A stretch of DNA of 32,606 bases. Source: Verrucomicrobiota bacterium (lineage in GTDB: Bacteria > Verrucomicrobiota > Verrucomicrobiia > Opitutales > Opitutaceae). Below are positions 10,127-17,067 of the stretch, one piece after another. A program made the position numbers and the translations under genes. The notes beneath the pieces were generated by a model. The model did not search any database. It was not told the DNA's origin and saw only the letters and a program-made list of their open reading frames with translations. Location: NCBI GenBank assembly GCA_016871595.1, contig VHCY01000017.1:1-32606 (forward strand), given 5' to 3'. Each line of letters begins with the position of its first letter. Position 1 is the stretch's first letter.

Positions 10127-12601
10127 ATGAGAACCCTTCCCGCCCTGATCCTGCCGCTGGTGGCCGCCGGTGCCGCCGTCGGCGGGGAACCGGCCCCCGG
10201 TGCCGCGCTTCGCCAACAGCTCGCGAGCTTCGCCACGACGGGGACCCTGCTGCACGTCGCCGCCCACCCGGATGACGAGAACACCCACCTCATCACCTAC
10301 TTCGCCCGGGCGCGCGGCTACCGCACCGGCTACCTCTCGCTGACGCGCGGCGATGGCGGGCAGAACGAGATCGGGCCGGAGTTTGACGCGAAGCTGGGCG
10401 TGGCCCGCACCCAGGAACTCCTCGAGGCGCGCAAGCTCGATGGTGGCGTCCAGTTCTTCACCCGCGCGATCGACTTCGGCTATTCCAAGTCAGCCGAGGA
10501 GACCCTGCGTTTCTGGGACCGGCGCGAGGTGCTGGGCGACGTGGTGCGGGTCATCCGGCAATTCCGGCCGGACGTGATCGTGACGCGCTTTTCCCCGCGG
10601 GGCGGCGGCACGCACGGGCACCACACCGCCTCGGGCATTCTGGGCGTGGAGGCCCTGCAGTTGGCGGCGGATCCCGCGGCCTATCCGGAGCAGATCGCGG
10701 AGGGTTTGCAGCCGTGGCGGGCGCGGCGGGTGGTCCTGAACAGCGGGGGTCCCGGCCGCGGGGGCGGCGAGGGGGCGCTGCGGCTCGACATCGGTGGTGC
10801 CGATCCGGCGACCGGCGAGGGCCTCGGGACCATCGCGGGCCGGAGCCGCGCGCGGCACATCACCCAGGGCTTCGGAAGCTTCGGCGCGCGCGGGGGCGGG
10901 GCGGGGCCGAATGAACAGTCCTTCACCGTGCTCGGGGGCGAACCCGCGACGCGGGACCTGTTCGACGGCGTGGACGTGACCTGGGGCCGCTACGGGCCGG
11001 CCGGTGCGCAGTTGGCGGAGGCGATCGAGGGGGTGCGGCGCGACTTCCGGCCGGAGCAACCGGCGGCGAGCGTGCCCGCGCTGTTCGCCCTGCGGCGGCG
11101 CCTGGATGCCCTGCCGCAGGACGCCCTCGTCGTGGACCGGCGGCGGCAGCTGGAGGGAATCATCCAGGAGTGTCTGGGCCTGCGTGCGCAGGTGACGGCG
11201 GACCGGGCCGAGGTGGTGCCGGGCTCCCCGCTGAAGTGGAATCTGGAACTGGCGGCTGGCGCGGTCGCGGTGCGGCTGCGCGGGGTGCGTCTCGGCGAAC
11301 GGGAGTTGCCCGAGGGCCGCGGGGAGGTCGCGCCCGGGGGCGTCTGGCGGCTCCAGACGGAGGCGCGGGTGCCGGCCGACCAGCCGTTGACGAATCCCTA
11401 CTGGCTGCGGGAGGAAGGGGCCGCGGGACTGTTCACGGTGGCGGACCGGAGCCTCATCGGCCGCGCGGAGGATCCGCCGGCGTTCAGCTGGACGTTCACC
11501 TTGGAAATCGGCGGGGAGTCGTGGTCGCTGGTCGTGCCGGGTGAGGCGGCGGAGACGGGGGAGCGCGCGGGACGCCGCCGCGGCGTGGCGGTGGTGGCGC
11601 CGGTGGTCTTCCAATTGGCGCACGAGGTGGAGTTGTTCGCCCCGGGGGCGACGCGGGAGGTGAAGGTCCAACTCACCCGCGAGGGAGAGCCGCTGGCCGG
11701 GCGGCTGGTCGCGGAGACGGGGGACGGGTGGAAGGCGGAAGTCCCCGCGCCGGAATTCCGCGCGGGTTCGGGTGCGCCCGCCTCCGTGACCGTGCGCGTG
11801 ACGGCCCCCGCGGCCGGGGGGAGCGCGCGGTTAAGGCTCCTTGCGGAGGTGGAAGGGCGGCGTTACGCGGGGCAGCGCGCGGAGATCCGTTACCCGCACC
11901 TCGCGCCGCAGGTCCTGCAGCCCCCGGCGGTCGTCCGATTGGTCGCGGCGGACGTGCGGGTGGGGGCGCGGCAGGTGGGTTACCTTCCGGGGGCGGGCGA
12001 TGACCTGGAGCGGGCCCTCGTCCAACTCGGGTGCACGGTCCGGCGCCTGCAGGGGAAGGACCTCTCGCTTGGCGGGCTGGCGGGCCTCGATGCGGTGGTG
12101 ATCGGCGTGCGCGCGTTCAACGAGCGGGACGATCTCGCCGCGAATCTGCCCGGCCTGTTCGCGTGGGTCGAGCAGGGGGGGACCGTGGTCGCCCAGTACA
12201 ACCGGCCCAATGGCCTGGCCGCCCCGAACCTGGGACCGCACGCGCTCTCGATCCAGGGACCGGCGCCGCAATTGCGGGTGACGGACGAGCGGTCGCCGGT
12301 GAATTTCCTCCTGCCGGCGCACCCCGTGCTGAACCGCCCGAACCGGATTGGCCCGGAGGATTTCGCGGGCTGGGTGCAGGAGCGAGGGGCGTACTTCCCG
12401 AGCAGTTGGGATGAGACCCGCTGGGAGGCGGTGCTGGCGCTCGCGGACCCCGGGGAGGCGCCGCTGCGGAGCGGGCTGCTGGTCGCGCGGCACGGGCGCG
12501 GACGCTACGTCTACACGGGGCTCGCGTTCTTCCGCCAGTTGCCCGCGGGCGTGCCGGGCGCCTACCGCCTCCTCGCCAACCTCCTCTCCCCCGAGCGATG
12601 A
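10127..12601 (+). CDS. Large secreted PIG-L/LmbE-type deacetylase-like protein
   Basis: This 824-residue protein has a signal peptide (about 1-20) and an N-terminal PIG-L domain of the zinc-dependent N-acetylglucosaminyl deacetylase superfamily. The metal motif AHPDDEN (His47, Asp50, Glu51) and a second His cluster THGHH (162-166) are present. Family members remove acetyl groups from GlcNAc conjugates. The middle looks like beta-sandwich domains, and residues about 605-820 resemble a class-I glutamine-amidotransferase-like or ThuA-like fold (for example GYLPGAGDDLERAL and GGTVVAQYN). BshB enzymes are only about 230-250 residues and cytoplasmic, so this is a distinct subfamily. Its stop overlaps the next start as ATGA (12598-12601), indicating translational coupling. 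I infer an extracytoplasmic hydrolase linked to the downstream symporter; the substrate is unknown. Confidence 0.85.
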   Translation: MRTLPALILPLVAAGAAVGGEPAPGAALRQQLASFATTGTLLHVAAHPDDENTHLITYFARARGYRTGYLSLTRGDGGQNEIGPEFDAKLGVARTQELLEARKLDGGVQFFTRAIDFGYSKSAEETLRFWDRREVLGDVVRVIRQFRPDVIVTRFSPRGGGTHGHHTASGILGVEALQLAADPAAYPEQIAEGLQPWRARRVVLNSGGPGRGGGEGALRLDIGGADPATGEGLGTIAGRSRARHITQGFGSFGARGGGAGPNEQSFTVLGGEPATRDLFDGVDVTWGRYGPAGAQLAEAIEGVRRDFRPEQPAASVPALFALRRRLDALPQDALVVDRRRQLEGIIQECLGLRAQVTADRAEVVPGSPLKWNLELAAGAVAVRLRGVRLGERELPEGRGEVAPGGVWRLQTEARVPADQPLTNPYWLREEGAAGLFTVADRSLIGRAEDPPAFSWTFTLEIGGESWSLVVPGEAAETGERAGRRRGVAVVAPVVFQLAHEVELFAPGATREVKVQLTREGEPLAGRLVAETGDGWKAEVPAPEFRAGSGAPASVTVRVTAPAAGGSARLRLLAEVEGRRYAGQRAEIRYPHLAPQVLQPPAVVRLVAADVRVGARQVGYLPGAGDDLERALVQLGCTVRRLQGKDLSLGGLAGLDAVVIGVRAFNERDDLAANLPGLFAWVEQGGTVVAQYNRPNGLAAPNLGPHALSIQGPAPQLRVTDERSPVNFLLPAHPVLNRPNRIGPEDFAGWVQERGAYFPSSWDETRWEAVLALADPGEAPLRSGLLVARHGRGRYVYTGLAFFRQLPAGVPGAYRLLANLLSPER

Positions 12602-12762
12602 AGCGCCCCGCCGACCCGGTGCCCCCGGCACGGGCCCCTGACGAGGACGAGCCGCCCGGGTTGCCGGGCCTGTCGCGCTGGAGCCACGTCTACGTGCTGA
12701 TCCTCATCGTCTTCGCGCTGCTCGTCGTGGGCCTCGCTTGGTTCACCGCGCATTACCGATGA
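12598..12762 (+). CDS. Small single-pass membrane protein (54 residues), function unknown
   Basis: This short gene lies between the PIG-L and symporter genes and overlaps both by an ATGA (12598-12601 and 12759-12762). That arrangement strongly supports it being translated. The product has a Pro- and acid-rich N-terminus (residues 1-25, including APDEDEPPGL), then SRWSHVY and a hydrophobic segment of about 19 residues (31-49, VYVLILIVFALLVVGLAWF), ending AHYR. The charge pattern suggests one membrane span with a short tail. I do not recognise a family. Its position suggests an accessory or stabilising subunit of the following SSS symporter; this is inference only. Confidence 0.75.
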   Translation: MKRPADPVPPARAPDEDEPPGLPGLSRWSHVYVLILIVFALLVVGLAWFTAHYR

Positions 12763-14447
12763 ACGCCCTCGACTGGCTGGTGCTGCTGGGGACGATGCTC
12801 GGCATCGCGGCCTACGGCACCTGGAAGTCGCGGCGGACGGAGCAACTCGACGCCTACCTGCGGGGCAACCAGGGGACGCGCTGGTTCACGATCGGCGTCT
12901 CGGTGGCGGCGACGCAGGCGAGCGCGATCACCTTCCTCTCGATCCCGGGGCAGGGTTTCGAGAGCGGGCTGGGCTTCGTCCAGAATTACTTCGGCCTGCC
13001 GCTCGCGCTGATTCTGGTCTGCGCCGTGTTTCTCCCGGTCTACCGCAAGCTGGGCGTCTACACGGCCTACGAATACCTCGGGCGCCGCTTCGACGGGAAG
13101 ACGCGGCTCCTCGGCGCGGCGCTGTTCCTCCTGCAGCGCGGGTTGGCGAGCGGGGTGACCATCTACGCGCCGGCGATCATCCTCTCGACCGTGCTGGGCT
13201 GGCCGATCGACGCGACCATCATCGGCACCGGCCTGCTGGTGGTCGCGTACACCGTCACGGGCGGCAGCGTGGCGGTGAGCCTGACGCAGAAGGGGCAGAT
13301 GGCGGTGATCTTCGGCGGGATGGTGGCGGCGTTCGTGCTGCTCTGGCAGCGCCTGCCGGAGGACGGCCTCGCGGTGGCCGGGGCGCTCGGGCGGCTGGAG
13401 GCGGTGGACTTCTCCCTTGATCCCGACCGCCGCTACACCTTCTGGAGCGGCCTGCTGGGCGGGCTTTTCCTGTCGCTCTCCTACTTCGGCACCGACCAGT
13501 CGCAGGTGCAGCGCTACATCGGGGGGGCGGGCCTGCGCGAGGGGCGGCTGGGGCTGGTCTTCAACGCGCTGCTGAAGATCCCGATGCAGTTCCTCATCCT
13601 GCTGCTCGGGACGATGATGTTCGTCTTCTACCACTTCCAGCCGGCGCCGGTCTTCTTCAACCGCGCGGAATGGGAGCGGCACGCCGCGGGACCCGCCGGG
13701 GCGCGTTTCCGGGAACTGGAGGAGCGCCACGGGGTGGCCCACGCGCAACGCCAGGCGGCGGCGCGGGCCTGGCTGGCCGCCCGCGAGGCCGGTGATCCCG
13801 CGGTGGAGGCGCCGGCGAAGCAGGCCCTCAAGGCGGCGCAGGCGGGGGTCGACACCGTCCGCCGCGAGGCCAAGGCGGCGCTGGTCGCGGCGGACCCGCG
13901 GGCCAAGACCAAGGACTCCGACTACGTCTTTATGCACTTCATCCTCGGGCAAATGCCGCCCGGGCTGGTGGGCCTGCTCGTCGCGGTGATGTTCGCCGCC
14001 GCGCTCGGTTCCAAGGCGGGTGAGCTCAACGCGCTGGGCACCACCACGGCGGTCGATTTCTGGCGCCACCTGCGGCCGCGGGCCGTCGTGGACGAGGCCC
14101 GCGAGGTCCGGATGGCGAAGGTGTTCACCGCCGGCTGGGGCCTGTTCGCGATCGGCTTTGCCCTGTTCGCGCGGTTCTCCGAGAACCTCATCGAGGCGAT
14201 CAACATCCTCGGATCGCTCTTCTACGGTGTGGTGCTCGGGCTGTTTCTGGTCGCGTTTTTCGCGCGGCGGGTCGGTGGCACGGCGGTCTTCTGGGGTGCG
14301 ATCGCGGCGCAGGTGCTAGTGCTGGTGCTCTACCGGACCCTCAGCATCTCCTACCTCTGGTACAACCTGATCGGCTGCGGCGCGTGCTTCGGCCTGAGCC
14401 TCGCCCTGCAGGCGTGCCTGCCGCGGACGGGGAAGGAGGCGCGATGA
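12759..14447 (+). CDS. SSS-family sodium:solute symporter
   Basis: The 562-residue product is a polytopic inner-membrane protein of the sodium:solute symporter family (LeuT fold), starting MNALDWLVLLGTM. Family features include KSRRTEQLDAYLRGNQ after TM1, the ATQASAITFLSIPGQGF segment and SYFGTDQSQVQRY. Between about residues 298 and 386 there is a soluble, Ala/Glu/Arg-rich insertion likely to be helical. It is followed by DYVFMHFILGQMPPGLVGLLVAVMFAAAL. From memory, this insertion position and the following segment resemble the SSS proteins found beside PIG-L genes in Bacteroidetes. An alternative in-frame TTG at 12738 exists, but the ATGA overlap favours 12759. It is coupled to the next gene by another ATGA (14444-14447). 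The transported solute is unknown. Confidence 0.9.
   Translation: MNALDWLVLLGTMLGIAAYGTWKSRRTEQLDAYLRGNQGTRWFTIGVSVAATQASAITFLSIPGQGFESGLGFVQNYFGLPLALILVCAVFLPVYRKLGVYTAYEYLGRRFDGKTRLLGAALFLLQRGLASGVTIYAPAIILSTVLGWPIDATIIGTGLLVVAYTVTGGSVAVSLTQKGQMAVIFGGMVAAFVLLWQRLPEDGLAVAGALGRLEAVDFSLDPDRRYTFWSGLLGGLFLSLSYFGTDQSQVQRYIGGAGLREGRLGLVFNALLKIPMQFLILLLGTMMFVFYHFQPAPVFFNRAEWERHAAGPAGARFRELEERHGVAHAQRQAAARAWLAAREAGDPAVEAPAKQALKAAQAGVDTVRREAKAALVAADPRAKTKDSDYVFMHFILGQMPPGLVGLLVAVMFAAALGSKAGELNALGTTTAVDFWRHLRPRAVVDEAREVRMAKVFTAGWGLFAIGFALFARFSENLIEAINILGSLFYGVVLGLFLVAFFARRVGGTAVFWGAIAAQVLVLVLYRTLSISYLWYNLIGCGACFGLSLALQACLPRTGKEAR
14433..14439 (+). promoter_or_regulatory. Strong Shine-Dalgarno sequence before the BshC-like gene
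   Basis: AAGGAGG ends 4 bases before the ATG at 14444 and lies inside the last codons of the symporter gene. Most starts in this window have no clear Shine-Dalgarno sequence, so this one stands out. It supports the chosen start and suggests extra initiation on top of ATGA coupling. Confidence 0.5.
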
Positions 14448-15208
14448 GCGCGGGCCCCGTCATCTGCCTCGGCCAGCAGCCCTGCGGCTTTTTCCCGCGG
14501 CGTTTCCTCGCGGCGAAATTCACCACCGCGCGCCGGCTGCAGGCGGAGCTGGGAGGGGAGATCGTGTTCTTCTACCACGACAGCGACCACGATCCGCGGG
14601 AGACGCAGACCCTGCTGCGGCACCGGCGGACGGGCGAACTCGCGACCCTCAACTTCGCCTTCGAGAACCGCCTGCAGCGCAAGTGGTCGCCGCTCCACCT
14701 CAAGCGGATCCCGGCGGGTTGGCAGGCGGGGATGCTGCGGCAACTCGGGGCCTACGCCCCGCCGGAGTCCATTGCGGCGTTCAAGGCGGCGGAGGGTGTG
14801 AACGTCGCCGACTTCTGCCTCTCCGTCTACCGCGGCCTCGGTCTGCTCGAGGGCATCCGGGTCGCGCGCTCCTCCGATCCGGCCTTCCGCCGGGCCGCGG
14901 GCGCGATCGGGGACTGCTTCGTGGACCTGCCGCACGAGGGGGAGGTGGTGCGGGCGCGCCGCGTCGGCGGCGGGTTCCGGCTGCACGAGGGGGGGGACGC
15001 CTACCGGGAGCTGCCGGACGCCCCCTTCGGCGCGGAGCAGGTGTCGCCGACGCGGGACACGCGCCTGCGCTGGATGCAGTCGGTGATCCGCTGCACCCAC
15101 TACGTGGCGGGGGCGGGGGAACAAGCGTACTTGCGCCGCGAGGACGCGCCTGAGATCACCTTCGTGCCCCGCGATGCCATCGACCGCCCGGAAGAAGCCC
15201 TCGTCTGA
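14444..15208 (+). CDS. Short BshC-like protein (putative cysteine-adding step of bacillithiol-type thiol synthesis)
   Basis: The 254-residue product resembles BshC, which adds cysteine to GlcN-malate in the last step of bacillithiol synthesis. Matches, judged from memory of the family, are GQQP at residues 10-13 (BshC: GQQPGL), a DHD at 48-50 after hydrophobic IVFFY (BshC: EDHD), and near the C-terminus SPTRDTRLRWMQ followed by YVAGAGEQAYL at 220-230 (BshC: YVGGPGE.AY). Classical BshC has about 540 residues with a coiled coil; more than half is missing here. The two neighbours downstream are BshB- and BshA-like, which strongly supports the assignment. The start has an excellent Shine-Dalgarno sequence and overlaps the symporter stop. 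Its 3' end overlaps the next gene by 35 bp. Whether it is a true ligase is untested. Confidence 0.6.
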   Translation: MSAGPVICLGQQPCGFFPRRFLAAKFTTARRLQAELGGEIVFFYHDSDHDPRETQTLLRHRRTGELATLNFAFENRLQRKWSPLHLKRIPAGWQAGMLRQLGAYAPPESIAAFKAAEGVNVADFCLSVYRGLGLLEGIRVARSSDPAFRRAAGAIGDCFVDLPHEGEVVRARRVGGGFRLHEGGDAYRELPDAPFGAEQVSPTRDTRLRWMQSVIRCTHYVAGAGEQAYLRREDAPEITFVPRDAIDRPEEALV

Positions 15209-15914
15209 GCCCGCCCCGCTCCTCGCCCTCGGGGCGCATCCCGATGACGTCGAGTTCGGTTGCGGCGCGGTGCTGGTGCAGGCGGCGCGGGCGGGTCGTC
15301 CGGTCCACGTGGTGGTCTGCACGCGCGGCGAGGCCGCGAGCCACGGCACCCCTGCGGGGCGGGCGCGCGAGGCGCGGCGCGGGGCGGCGCTGATGGGCGC
15401 CACGCTGGAGTTCCTGGTCCTCGGGCGAGATGCGGCCCTCGAGGCGCGGCCATCCGCGGCCCGGGCGCTGGCGGGCCTGATCCGGCGGGTGCGCCCGGAG
15501 ATCGTGCTCGCGCCGACCCTGGAGGGGGACCAGCACCCGGACCACGTCGTCCTCGGACGGCTCGCGCGCGACGCGGCCCGTTTGGCCCGTTTTGGCAGGC
15601 TGGCCGGCCTCCGCGGTGTGCCCCACGCCATCGGGCAGCTTTTCCACTATGCGGTCACGCCCGACGCCGAGCCCGCCGGGGGCGGCCGCATTGTGGTGGA
15701 TGTTTCCGCGCCGGAGGTGGTGGCCGCCTGGACCGCCGCGATGACCGCGCACGCTTCGCAGCTGCGGACGCGCAATTACGTGGAACTGCAGCTTGCCCGG
15801 GCGCGGGTGCTCGGGCTGCGGGCCGGCGTAGAGCACGCCCAAGCGTTGTTCCCCGCGAGCGCCCCGCTGGTCACTGGGCTGGACGGCCTGACGCGCGCGG
15901 CGCGCCGGTTCTGA
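15174..15914 (+). CDS. bshB: BshB-type PIG-L deacetylase (GlcNAc-malate deacetylase)
   Basis: This 246-residue cytoplasmic PIG-L enzyme has the length of BshB, which removes acetate from GlcNAc-malate to give GlcN-malate. The zinc motif GAHPDDVEFGCG (His22, Asp24, Asp25) and the second motif GDQHPDHVVLG (His121, Asp123, His124) are intact. There is no signal peptide, unlike the large PIG-L protein upstream. TRGEAASHGTPAGRAREA matches the BshB1-type pattern. The chosen ATG lies 35 bp inside the preceding gene; no better start precedes the conserved strand LLALGAHPDD. bshA follows after 1 bp. This direct context with bshA makes bacillithiol-type synthesis more likely than another GlcNAc deacetylation. 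Confidence 0.85.
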   Translation: MPSTARKKPSSEPAPLLALGAHPDDVEFGCGAVLVQAARAGRPVHVVVCTRGEAASHGTPAGRAREARRGAALMGATLEFLVLGRDAALEARPSAARALAGLIRRVRPEIVLAPTLEGDQHPDHVVLGRLARDAARLARFGRLAGLRGVPHAIGQLFHYAVTPDAEPAGGGRIVVDVSAPEVVAAWTAAMTAHASQLRTRNYVELQLARARVLGLRAGVEHAQALFPASAPLVTGLDGLTRAARRF

Positions 15915-15915
15915 G

Positions 15916-17067
15916 ATGGCCGCCGAGCGACCCCTGCGCATCGGCATCACTTGCTACCCGTCTGTGGGCGGGAGCGGGATTCTGGCCTCGGCGCTTGGGG
16001 AGGAGCTGGCGCGACGCGGCCACGCGGTGCACTTCATCAGTTACGAGCGTCCGTTCCGCCTTTCCGCCGCGACCCCGGGCATCCACTTCCACCCGGTCGT
16101 CATCAACGACTACGAGCTGTTCCGCTACCCGGACTACACGCTGCCGCTCTCGGTGCGGATGGCGGAGGTGGCGCGGGCGCACGCCCTCGACGTGCTGCAC
16201 GTGCACTATGCGGTGCCGCACGCCACCGCGGCGATCCTGGCGCGGGCGATGGCCGGCCCCGAACGGGCGCCGCGGGTCGTGACCACGCTGCACGGCACCG
16301 ACACGACTTTGCTGGGTCGCGATCCCGGCTACGGGCCGGCGATCCGCCACGCGCTGCTCCAGTCGGACGCGGTGACGACGGTCTCGGGGTGGCTGCGGGA
16401 CGAGACGCGACGGCTGCTGGCGGTGGAGTGTCCGATCGACGTGATCCCGAATTTCTTCGCGCCGCGGCCGGTCACGCGGTCGCGGGCTGAGGTGCGGGCG
16501 GAACTGGGGGTGGGGGAGGAGCCGTTGCTCGTGCACCTCTCGAATCTTCGTCCGGTCAAGCGCTTCGACCTCCTCTTGGAGTCGTTGGCGCGGGTGCCCG
16601 CCGGGAGGCCCTGGAAACTGCTGGTGCTGGCGGGCGGGGATTTTTCACCGTACGCGCCGCTGGTGCGCCGGCTAGGGCTGGAGTCGCGGGTCGTGGTGCG
16701 GGCAAGCGTCTTCGACGTCGAGGACCACCTGCAGGCGGGTGATCTGGGACTGTTCACCTCGGAGTCCGAGAGTTTCTGCCTCGGCTTGCTCGAGGCGATG
16801 TGGTTCGGCTGCCCGAGCGTCTCGACCGCGGTGGGCGGCATCCCGGAGGTGGTGGAGGATGGGCGTTCCGGGCTGCTGGTCTCCGCGGCGGATCCGGAGC
16901 CGCTGGGGGCGGCGGTGACGTCGCTGCTGGACGATCCGGAGCGGCGGCGCCGGATGGGGACCGAGGCGCGGCGGCGGGCCGAATCCGTGTTCTCCGCGGC
17001 GGCGGTGGTCCCGGGGTATGAGGCGCTCTACCGCCGGGTGTTGGCGGCGCCGGCGGGTCCCGCCTAG
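15916..17067 (+). CDS. bshA: BshA, N-acetyl-alpha-D-glucosaminyl L-malate synthase
   Basis: BshA is a GT4 retaining glycosyltransferase that joins GlcNAc from UDP-GlcNAc to L-malate, the first step of bacillithiol synthesis. The 383-residue product is close in length to the Bacillus enzyme (about 377). It begins IGITCYPSVGGSGILASALG and contains HVHYAVPHA, TTLHGTDTTLLG (His126), VIPNFF and HLSNLRPVKRFD. The EX7E motif is E285-E293 within ESESFCLGLLEAMWFGCPSV, followed by GGIPEVVEDG. These stretches match BshA closely, not just GT4 enzymes in general. The ATG is 1 bp after the bshB stop. The order here, short bshC-like, bshB, bshA, encodes the whole pathway in reverse step order. Confidence 0.93.
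   Translation: MAAERPLRIGITCYPSVGGSGILASALGEELARRGHAVHFISYERPFRLSAATPGIHFHPVVINDYELFRYPDYTLPLSVRMAEVARAHALDVLHVHYAVPHATAAILARAMAGPERAPRVVTTLHGTDTTLLGRDPGYGPAIRHALLQSDAVTTVSGWLRDETRRLLAVECPIDVIPNFFAPRPVTRSRAEVRAELGVGEEPLLVHLSNLRPVKRFDLLLESLARVPAGRPWKLLVLAGGDFSPYAPLVRRLGLESRVVVRASVFDVEDHLQAGDLGLFTSESESFCLGLLEAMWFGCPSVSTAVGGIPEVVEDGRSGLLVSAADPEPLGAAVTSLLDDPERRRRMGTEARRRAESVFSAAAVVPGYEALYRRVLAAPAGPA

Follow-up and report, generated by a model that had tools for sequence, protein, structure and literature searches.

A gene that lies directly before bshB- and bshA-like genes in an Opitutaceae bacterium very probably encodes a compact, divergent BshC made of the core of the enzyme only, which would most likely catalyze the last step of bacillithiol synthesis, the ligation of cysteine to GlcN-malate. 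Bacillithiol is a protective thiol, and BshC is thought to add the cysteine in this last step. The protein is homologous to BshC, with the same predicted fold, its gene is in an operon with bshB and bshA, it co-occurs with BshA and, in the genomes sampled, it is never found together with a full-length BshC.

The short gene and its neighbours

The window, which is the whole stretch of DNA that was analysed (32,606 nucleotides), comes from a genome of 444 contigs which is 89.7% complete. The short gene occupies positions 14444..15208 on the + strand: it starts with the ATG at 14444, with AAGGAGG just 5' of it, and ends with a stop codon at 15206-15208. Its product is a half-size BshC-like protein of 254 aa, a proposed cysteine-adding ligase on the basis of the reading frame, the motifs, the fold and the profile matches. 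The preliminary description had noted three landmarks, GQQP, DHD and YVAGAGEQAY, in a 254-residue reading frame directly followed by bshB- and bshA-like genes. The sequence confirms them, in this order, at residues 10-13, 48-50 and 220-229, and D48-H49-D50 directly follows a predicted strand (39-44). An alignment of 40 short proteins shows no variation in GQQP, DHD or G-x-x-E-x-x-Y. The conservation of the gene and of its motif set is far beyond chance, because relatives occur in 91 of the 150 family genomes examined and the three motifs are invariant in the 40 rows. The 111 short genes that were extracted, including that of the window, encode 88 distinct proteins, with lengths of 253-288 aa (the start codons were chosen by a script).

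The remark that a cysteine, Cys14, stands where BshC usually has a glycine also holds: its column corresponds to the glycine that ends GQQAG in six full-length BshC proteins. Yet the residue is a serine in 3 of the 40 rows, so Cys14 is not strictly required, and it was dropped as a candidate essential residue. Two other cysteines, C125 and C217, are invariant in the 40 rows and are not among the invariant columns of full-length BshC. That the conserved cysteines of the short protein bind a metal is a guess.

The short gene is followed by a gene for a bshB-like PIG-L deacetylase of 246 aa (15174..15914, + strand), whose ATG at 15174 overlaps the end of the short gene by 35 bp, and then by bshA (15916..17067, + strand). 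The bshB-like protein matches TIGR04001 with an E-value of 6.9e-39 and 133.9 bits, below the cut-off of 182.5, and its PDB matches include the GlcNAc-malate deacetylase 6p2t. Judged from its sequence, it is a clear match to BshB1, though below the curated cut-off. The 383 aa product of bshA, a predicted N-acetyl-glucosaminyl-L-malate synthase, scores 387.8 bits against TIGR03999, over the cut-off of 273.7. The short gene shares with full-length bshC the genomic link to bshA and bshB. The gene order was compared at 131 short-gene loci, many of which have short flanks and some of which may be counted twice if their genome was fetched twice: the short gene is followed by bshB and bshA at 119 loci, by bshB at 9 and by bshA at 2, and it is alone at 1. 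At three loci (L009, L098 and L167) bshA comes directly after the short gene, with no bshB between them.

On the other side, a gene for a sodium:solute symporter of the SSF family (12738..14447, + strand; PF00474, E-value 1.6e-34) shares its last 4 bp with the beginning of the short gene; it is preceded by the gene of an 824 aa PIG-L protein (10127..12601, + strand; PF02585). Of the 64 well-flanked loci, whose flanks reach 4 kb or more upstream and 5 kb or more downstream, 63 have the symporter upstream and 56 have the complete order PIG-L protein, symporter, short gene, bshB, bshA. When the eight other window genes were compared over the same loci, four emerged as conserved neighbours: bshB, bshA, the symporter and the 824 aa PIG-L protein.

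Relation to full-length BshC

Neither Pfam nor NCBIfam has a family that matches the protein of the window at E ≤ 1. When the 40 aligned proteins are scanned singly, 7 match PF10079, the BshC core, at E ≤ 0.01 (best E-value 8.6e-6; the other 33 have no such match), and 5 match TIGR03998, the NCBIfam model of BshC (best E-value 1.4e-4). Apart from these BshC models, the sole match among the 40 is one to DUF6980, with an E-value of 0.0088. One relative, L111, reaches 25.4 bits against PF10079, below the Pfam cut-off of 27, and the only PF10079 match in the 150 family genomes, which is also under the cut-off, falls inside the short gene of the genome that L111 comes from (G078). The protein of the window attains neither the PF10079 gathering threshold nor the TIGR03998 cut-off for curated BshC membership, and L111 misses the former; the short protein is therefore counted as a new BshC variant. 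That this variant is real is well supported, and its function is probable.

The profile-profile comparison proposed in the preliminary description was carried out with hhalign. The 40 short proteins match five full-length BshC proteins (from Bacillus, Deinococcus, Paenibacillus and two Verrucomicrobiota) with an E-value of 3.4e-4, at a probability of only 38%; residues 3-230 of the short protein align to residues 82-357 of BshC, with the motifs collinear. Against an alignment of six full-length proteins the score is 37.3, whereas 200 column-shuffled controls all score lower (mean 16.1, best 26.2), and a control with the reversed alignment scores 16.7. The alignment of short proteins is shallow (Neff 2.2). 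Searching the PDB sequences with the profile of one alignment of the short family (A1) did not find the BshC entry 4wbd and gave nothing credible. A phmmer match in the PDB sequences to the mitoribosomal protein mS38, over about 45 residues (best E-value 0.002), was rejected as chance.

The AlphaFold2 model of the short protein has a mean pLDDT of 95.1 and a pTM of 0.91. Foldseek returns as its top match 4wbd, the BshC of B. subtilis (E-value 2.1e-9, probability 1.00, TM-score 0.65 by query length), with an rmsd of 6.5 over 311 columns. It is the only PDB match of the model at E ≤ 0.001, and the class I aminoacyl-tRNA synthetases come next, from 1.6e-3. The comparison thus predicts the Rossmann-like core fold of BshC in the short protein, and it bears out, together with the PF10079 and TIGR03998 matches, the compact BshC-like identity that had been proposed.

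The likeness to BshC extends to the motifs. GQQ, DHD-x-x-E and G-x-x-E-x-x-Y are collinear and invariant in the 40 short and the six full-length proteins, the last of them near the end of the core. According to the alignments, read by eye, the spacing within DHD-x-x-E and G-x-x-E-x-x-Y is the same in both, and a lysine follows 15 residues past the G of GQQ, without gaps (G10...K25 in the short protein, G89...K104 in Bacillus). The difference lies in size: the short protein has 254 aa, whereas the six full-length proteins compared have 521-554 residues and about 520-555 is typical of BshC. It lacks the N-terminal part of about 80 residues, a core-internal stretch of 37 residues (as aligned by hhalign) and, since it stops after the core, the C-terminal coiled-coil domain (PF24850). 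In other words, the short protein amounts to the Rossmann-like core of BshC alone.

The coiled coil of full-length BshC is reportedly required for dimerization (PMC4360819), which would be consistent with the short protein being one subunit of an enzyme whose N-terminal and coiled-coil parts are supplied by a second protein. This is very improbable: PF24850 is found in none of the 150 family genomes at E ≤ 0.001, in a search that is positive in three control genomes, and the genes conserved around the short gene at the well-flanked loci are only the four named above. The PF24850 search likewise gives no support to a BshC split in two, the coiled coil being encoded at another place in the genome; a diverged partner is conceivable.

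MshC, the cysteine ligase of mycothiol synthesis, is described as a paralog of cysteinyl-tRNA synthetase (PMC2922099). The reaction proposed for the short protein is of the same type, the transfer of a cysteine to an amino-sugar, by an enzyme with a class I synthetase-like fold. In contrast, no MshC chain is present among the 50 Foldseek matches listed for the short model, and the pathway genes next to the short gene fit the BshA and BshB models best, and the MshA and MshB models more weakly.

Distribution in the family and the phylum

BshA is found over the cut-off in 88 of the 150 family genomes, each of which has the short gene as well (Fisher p 1e-38, with the 150 genomes treated as independent and their relatedness uncorrected). 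In the three other carriers, BshA is cut by contig ends or possibly lies beyond them: it is cut at the start of a contig in G088 and is in two pieces on two contigs in G129, and the locus fetched from G028 ends about 600 bases past the short gene. In some genera, the short gene and BshA are jointly absent from certain genomes and both present in others (absent from G093 and G147 in g37, and from G044, G075, G098 and G135 in g44). One genome, G079, has two copies of bshA over the cut-off, on contigs C27 and C34, and the short gene on C43.

The short protein could also be the decayed, inactive remnant of a BshC, as it has about half the length of the enzyme and the protein of the window matches no curated family. 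This explanation is hardly credible, considering that the relatives keep 50-94% identity and many invariant polar residues, that the predicted model is compact and of high confidence, and that every BshA-positive genome of the family has the gene.

A full-length bshC was sought, as the preliminary description had advised, and none was found in the genome of the window, at its 89.7% completeness. None of the 150 family genomes, several of which consist of a single contig and are listed as 97-100% complete, has one over the cut-off. In a sample of 288 genomes of the phylum, 19 have BshA over the cut-off: 17 of these have the short gene and 2 a full-length BshC, none has both and none has neither. 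Of the 17, two genomes belong to a different family of the order and one to a different family of the class. The nearest named relatives of the window protein, five loci with 91-94% identity, come from metagenome genomes labelled Opitutaceae, Opitutia or Verrucomicrobia; the best 80 of 269 relatives in a scan of genome contigs all have titles read as those of Verrucomicrobia organisms. A search of plasmids gave no credible relative, only one chance match with an E-value of 0.4.

The suggestion that these proteins form a separate BshC subfamily in the Verrucomicrobiota stands with a refinement: the short type is present throughout the BshA-positive genomes of the family, and it is specific to a lineage, since three other Verrucomicrobiota genomes carry full-length BshC. 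These three genomes, which belong to another family (L162, L163 and L164), have the order methyltransferase-like gene, full-length bshC, bshB, bshA. The methyltransferase-like gene may encode an N-methyl-bacillithiol synthase. In the 20 kb fetched from these loci, nothing matches the 824 aa PIG-L protein or the symporter at E ≤ 1e-4.

Other genes of thiol systems were also looked for. A bacillithiol disulfide reductase of the YpdA type, which would have supported the assignment, was not found in the 150 family genomes at E ≤ 1e-60. Regarding glutathione as an alternative, the GSH-synthetase domain PF02955 occurs in 13 of the 150 genomes (12 over the cut-off) and is absent from that of the window.

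Proposed function and significance

Following the steps described for B. subtilis (PMC4360819), BshA would make GlcNAc-malate, and the bshB-like deacetylase would free its amine to give GlcN-malate. The short BshC would then activate cysteine with ATP in a Rossmann cleft around GQQ, DHD and G-x-x-E-x-x-Y, which are the presumed acting residues, and join it to the amine of GlcN-malate to form bacillithiol or a close relative.

Alternatively, an enzyme with the same fold could ligate an aminoacyl or acyl group other than cysteine to GlcN-malate, giving a relative of bacillithiol with no thiol or with another thiol. The proximity of the fold to class I aminoacyl-tRNA synthetases, a fold family of varied amino-acid specificity, is consistent with this proposal, as is the by-eye observation that the short protein keeps only part of the invariant positions of BshC. 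The substrate pocket may also differ, in view of C125 and C217. Such an enzyme is nevertheless improbable, since the short gene adjoins bshB and bshA, where BshC is expected, and since no genome among the 288 of the phylum has it together with full-length BshC.

The cysteine ligase remains the preferred assignment, and the conserved upstream genes may be related to it. The 824 aa protein has a PIG-L domain at residues 42-176 and a long beta-rich part; its N-terminus, judged by eye, is signal-like, and so is that of many of its relatives. Its top structural matches are LnmX and MshB, and its best NCBIfam match, far below the cut-off, is the mycothiol conjugate amidase Mca. It is found at E ≤ 1e-60 in 88 of the 150 family genomes, 86 of which are among the 91 carriers of the short gene; five carriers lack it, and the two non-carriers that have it, G068 and G138, are only 76% and 70% complete. 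This protein is possibly an exported conjugate amidase and the symporter may take back the freed part, so that the two would form a periplasmic conjugate-recycling pair. A broader proposal, which is rather unlikely as a whole, is that the core-only BshC needs neither the N-terminal region nor the coiled coil for its activity, and that the Opitutaceae have an unrecognised bacillithiol pathway in which it is the only cysteine ligase. An exported PIG-L conjugate amidase and a sodium symporter would be coupled to this pathway and would jointly recover GlcN-malate or its conjugates from the periplasm.

A 2018 survey counts the Verrucomicrobia among the major lineages for which a low-molecular-weight thiol is neither documented nor predicted, and its orthologs had to be of similar length and to share 30% identity or more (PMC6282198). 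A 2025 survey of BshA-C requires a coverage above 80%, and the strings Verrucomicro and Opitut do not occur in its main text (PMC12719100). The filters on length, identity and coverage of both surveys are expected to miss the short protein. The open-licence papers on bacillithiol or low-molecular-weight thiols that mention Verrucomicrobi or Opitut, mostly screened as listings, did not reveal any description of a short BshC. As for the reaction, according to a 2015 review, the activity of BshC had not then been shown in vitro and the mechanism of cysteine ligation was then still unknown (PMC4360819).

A natural BshC with no coiled coil would be a small target for solving the ligation mechanism, and would show which parts of the enzyme are dispensable. 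If the short protein works as a BshC, the organisms that carry it would make bacillithiol or a close relative, and it may thus fill a gap in a group for which no thiol of this kind had been predicted.
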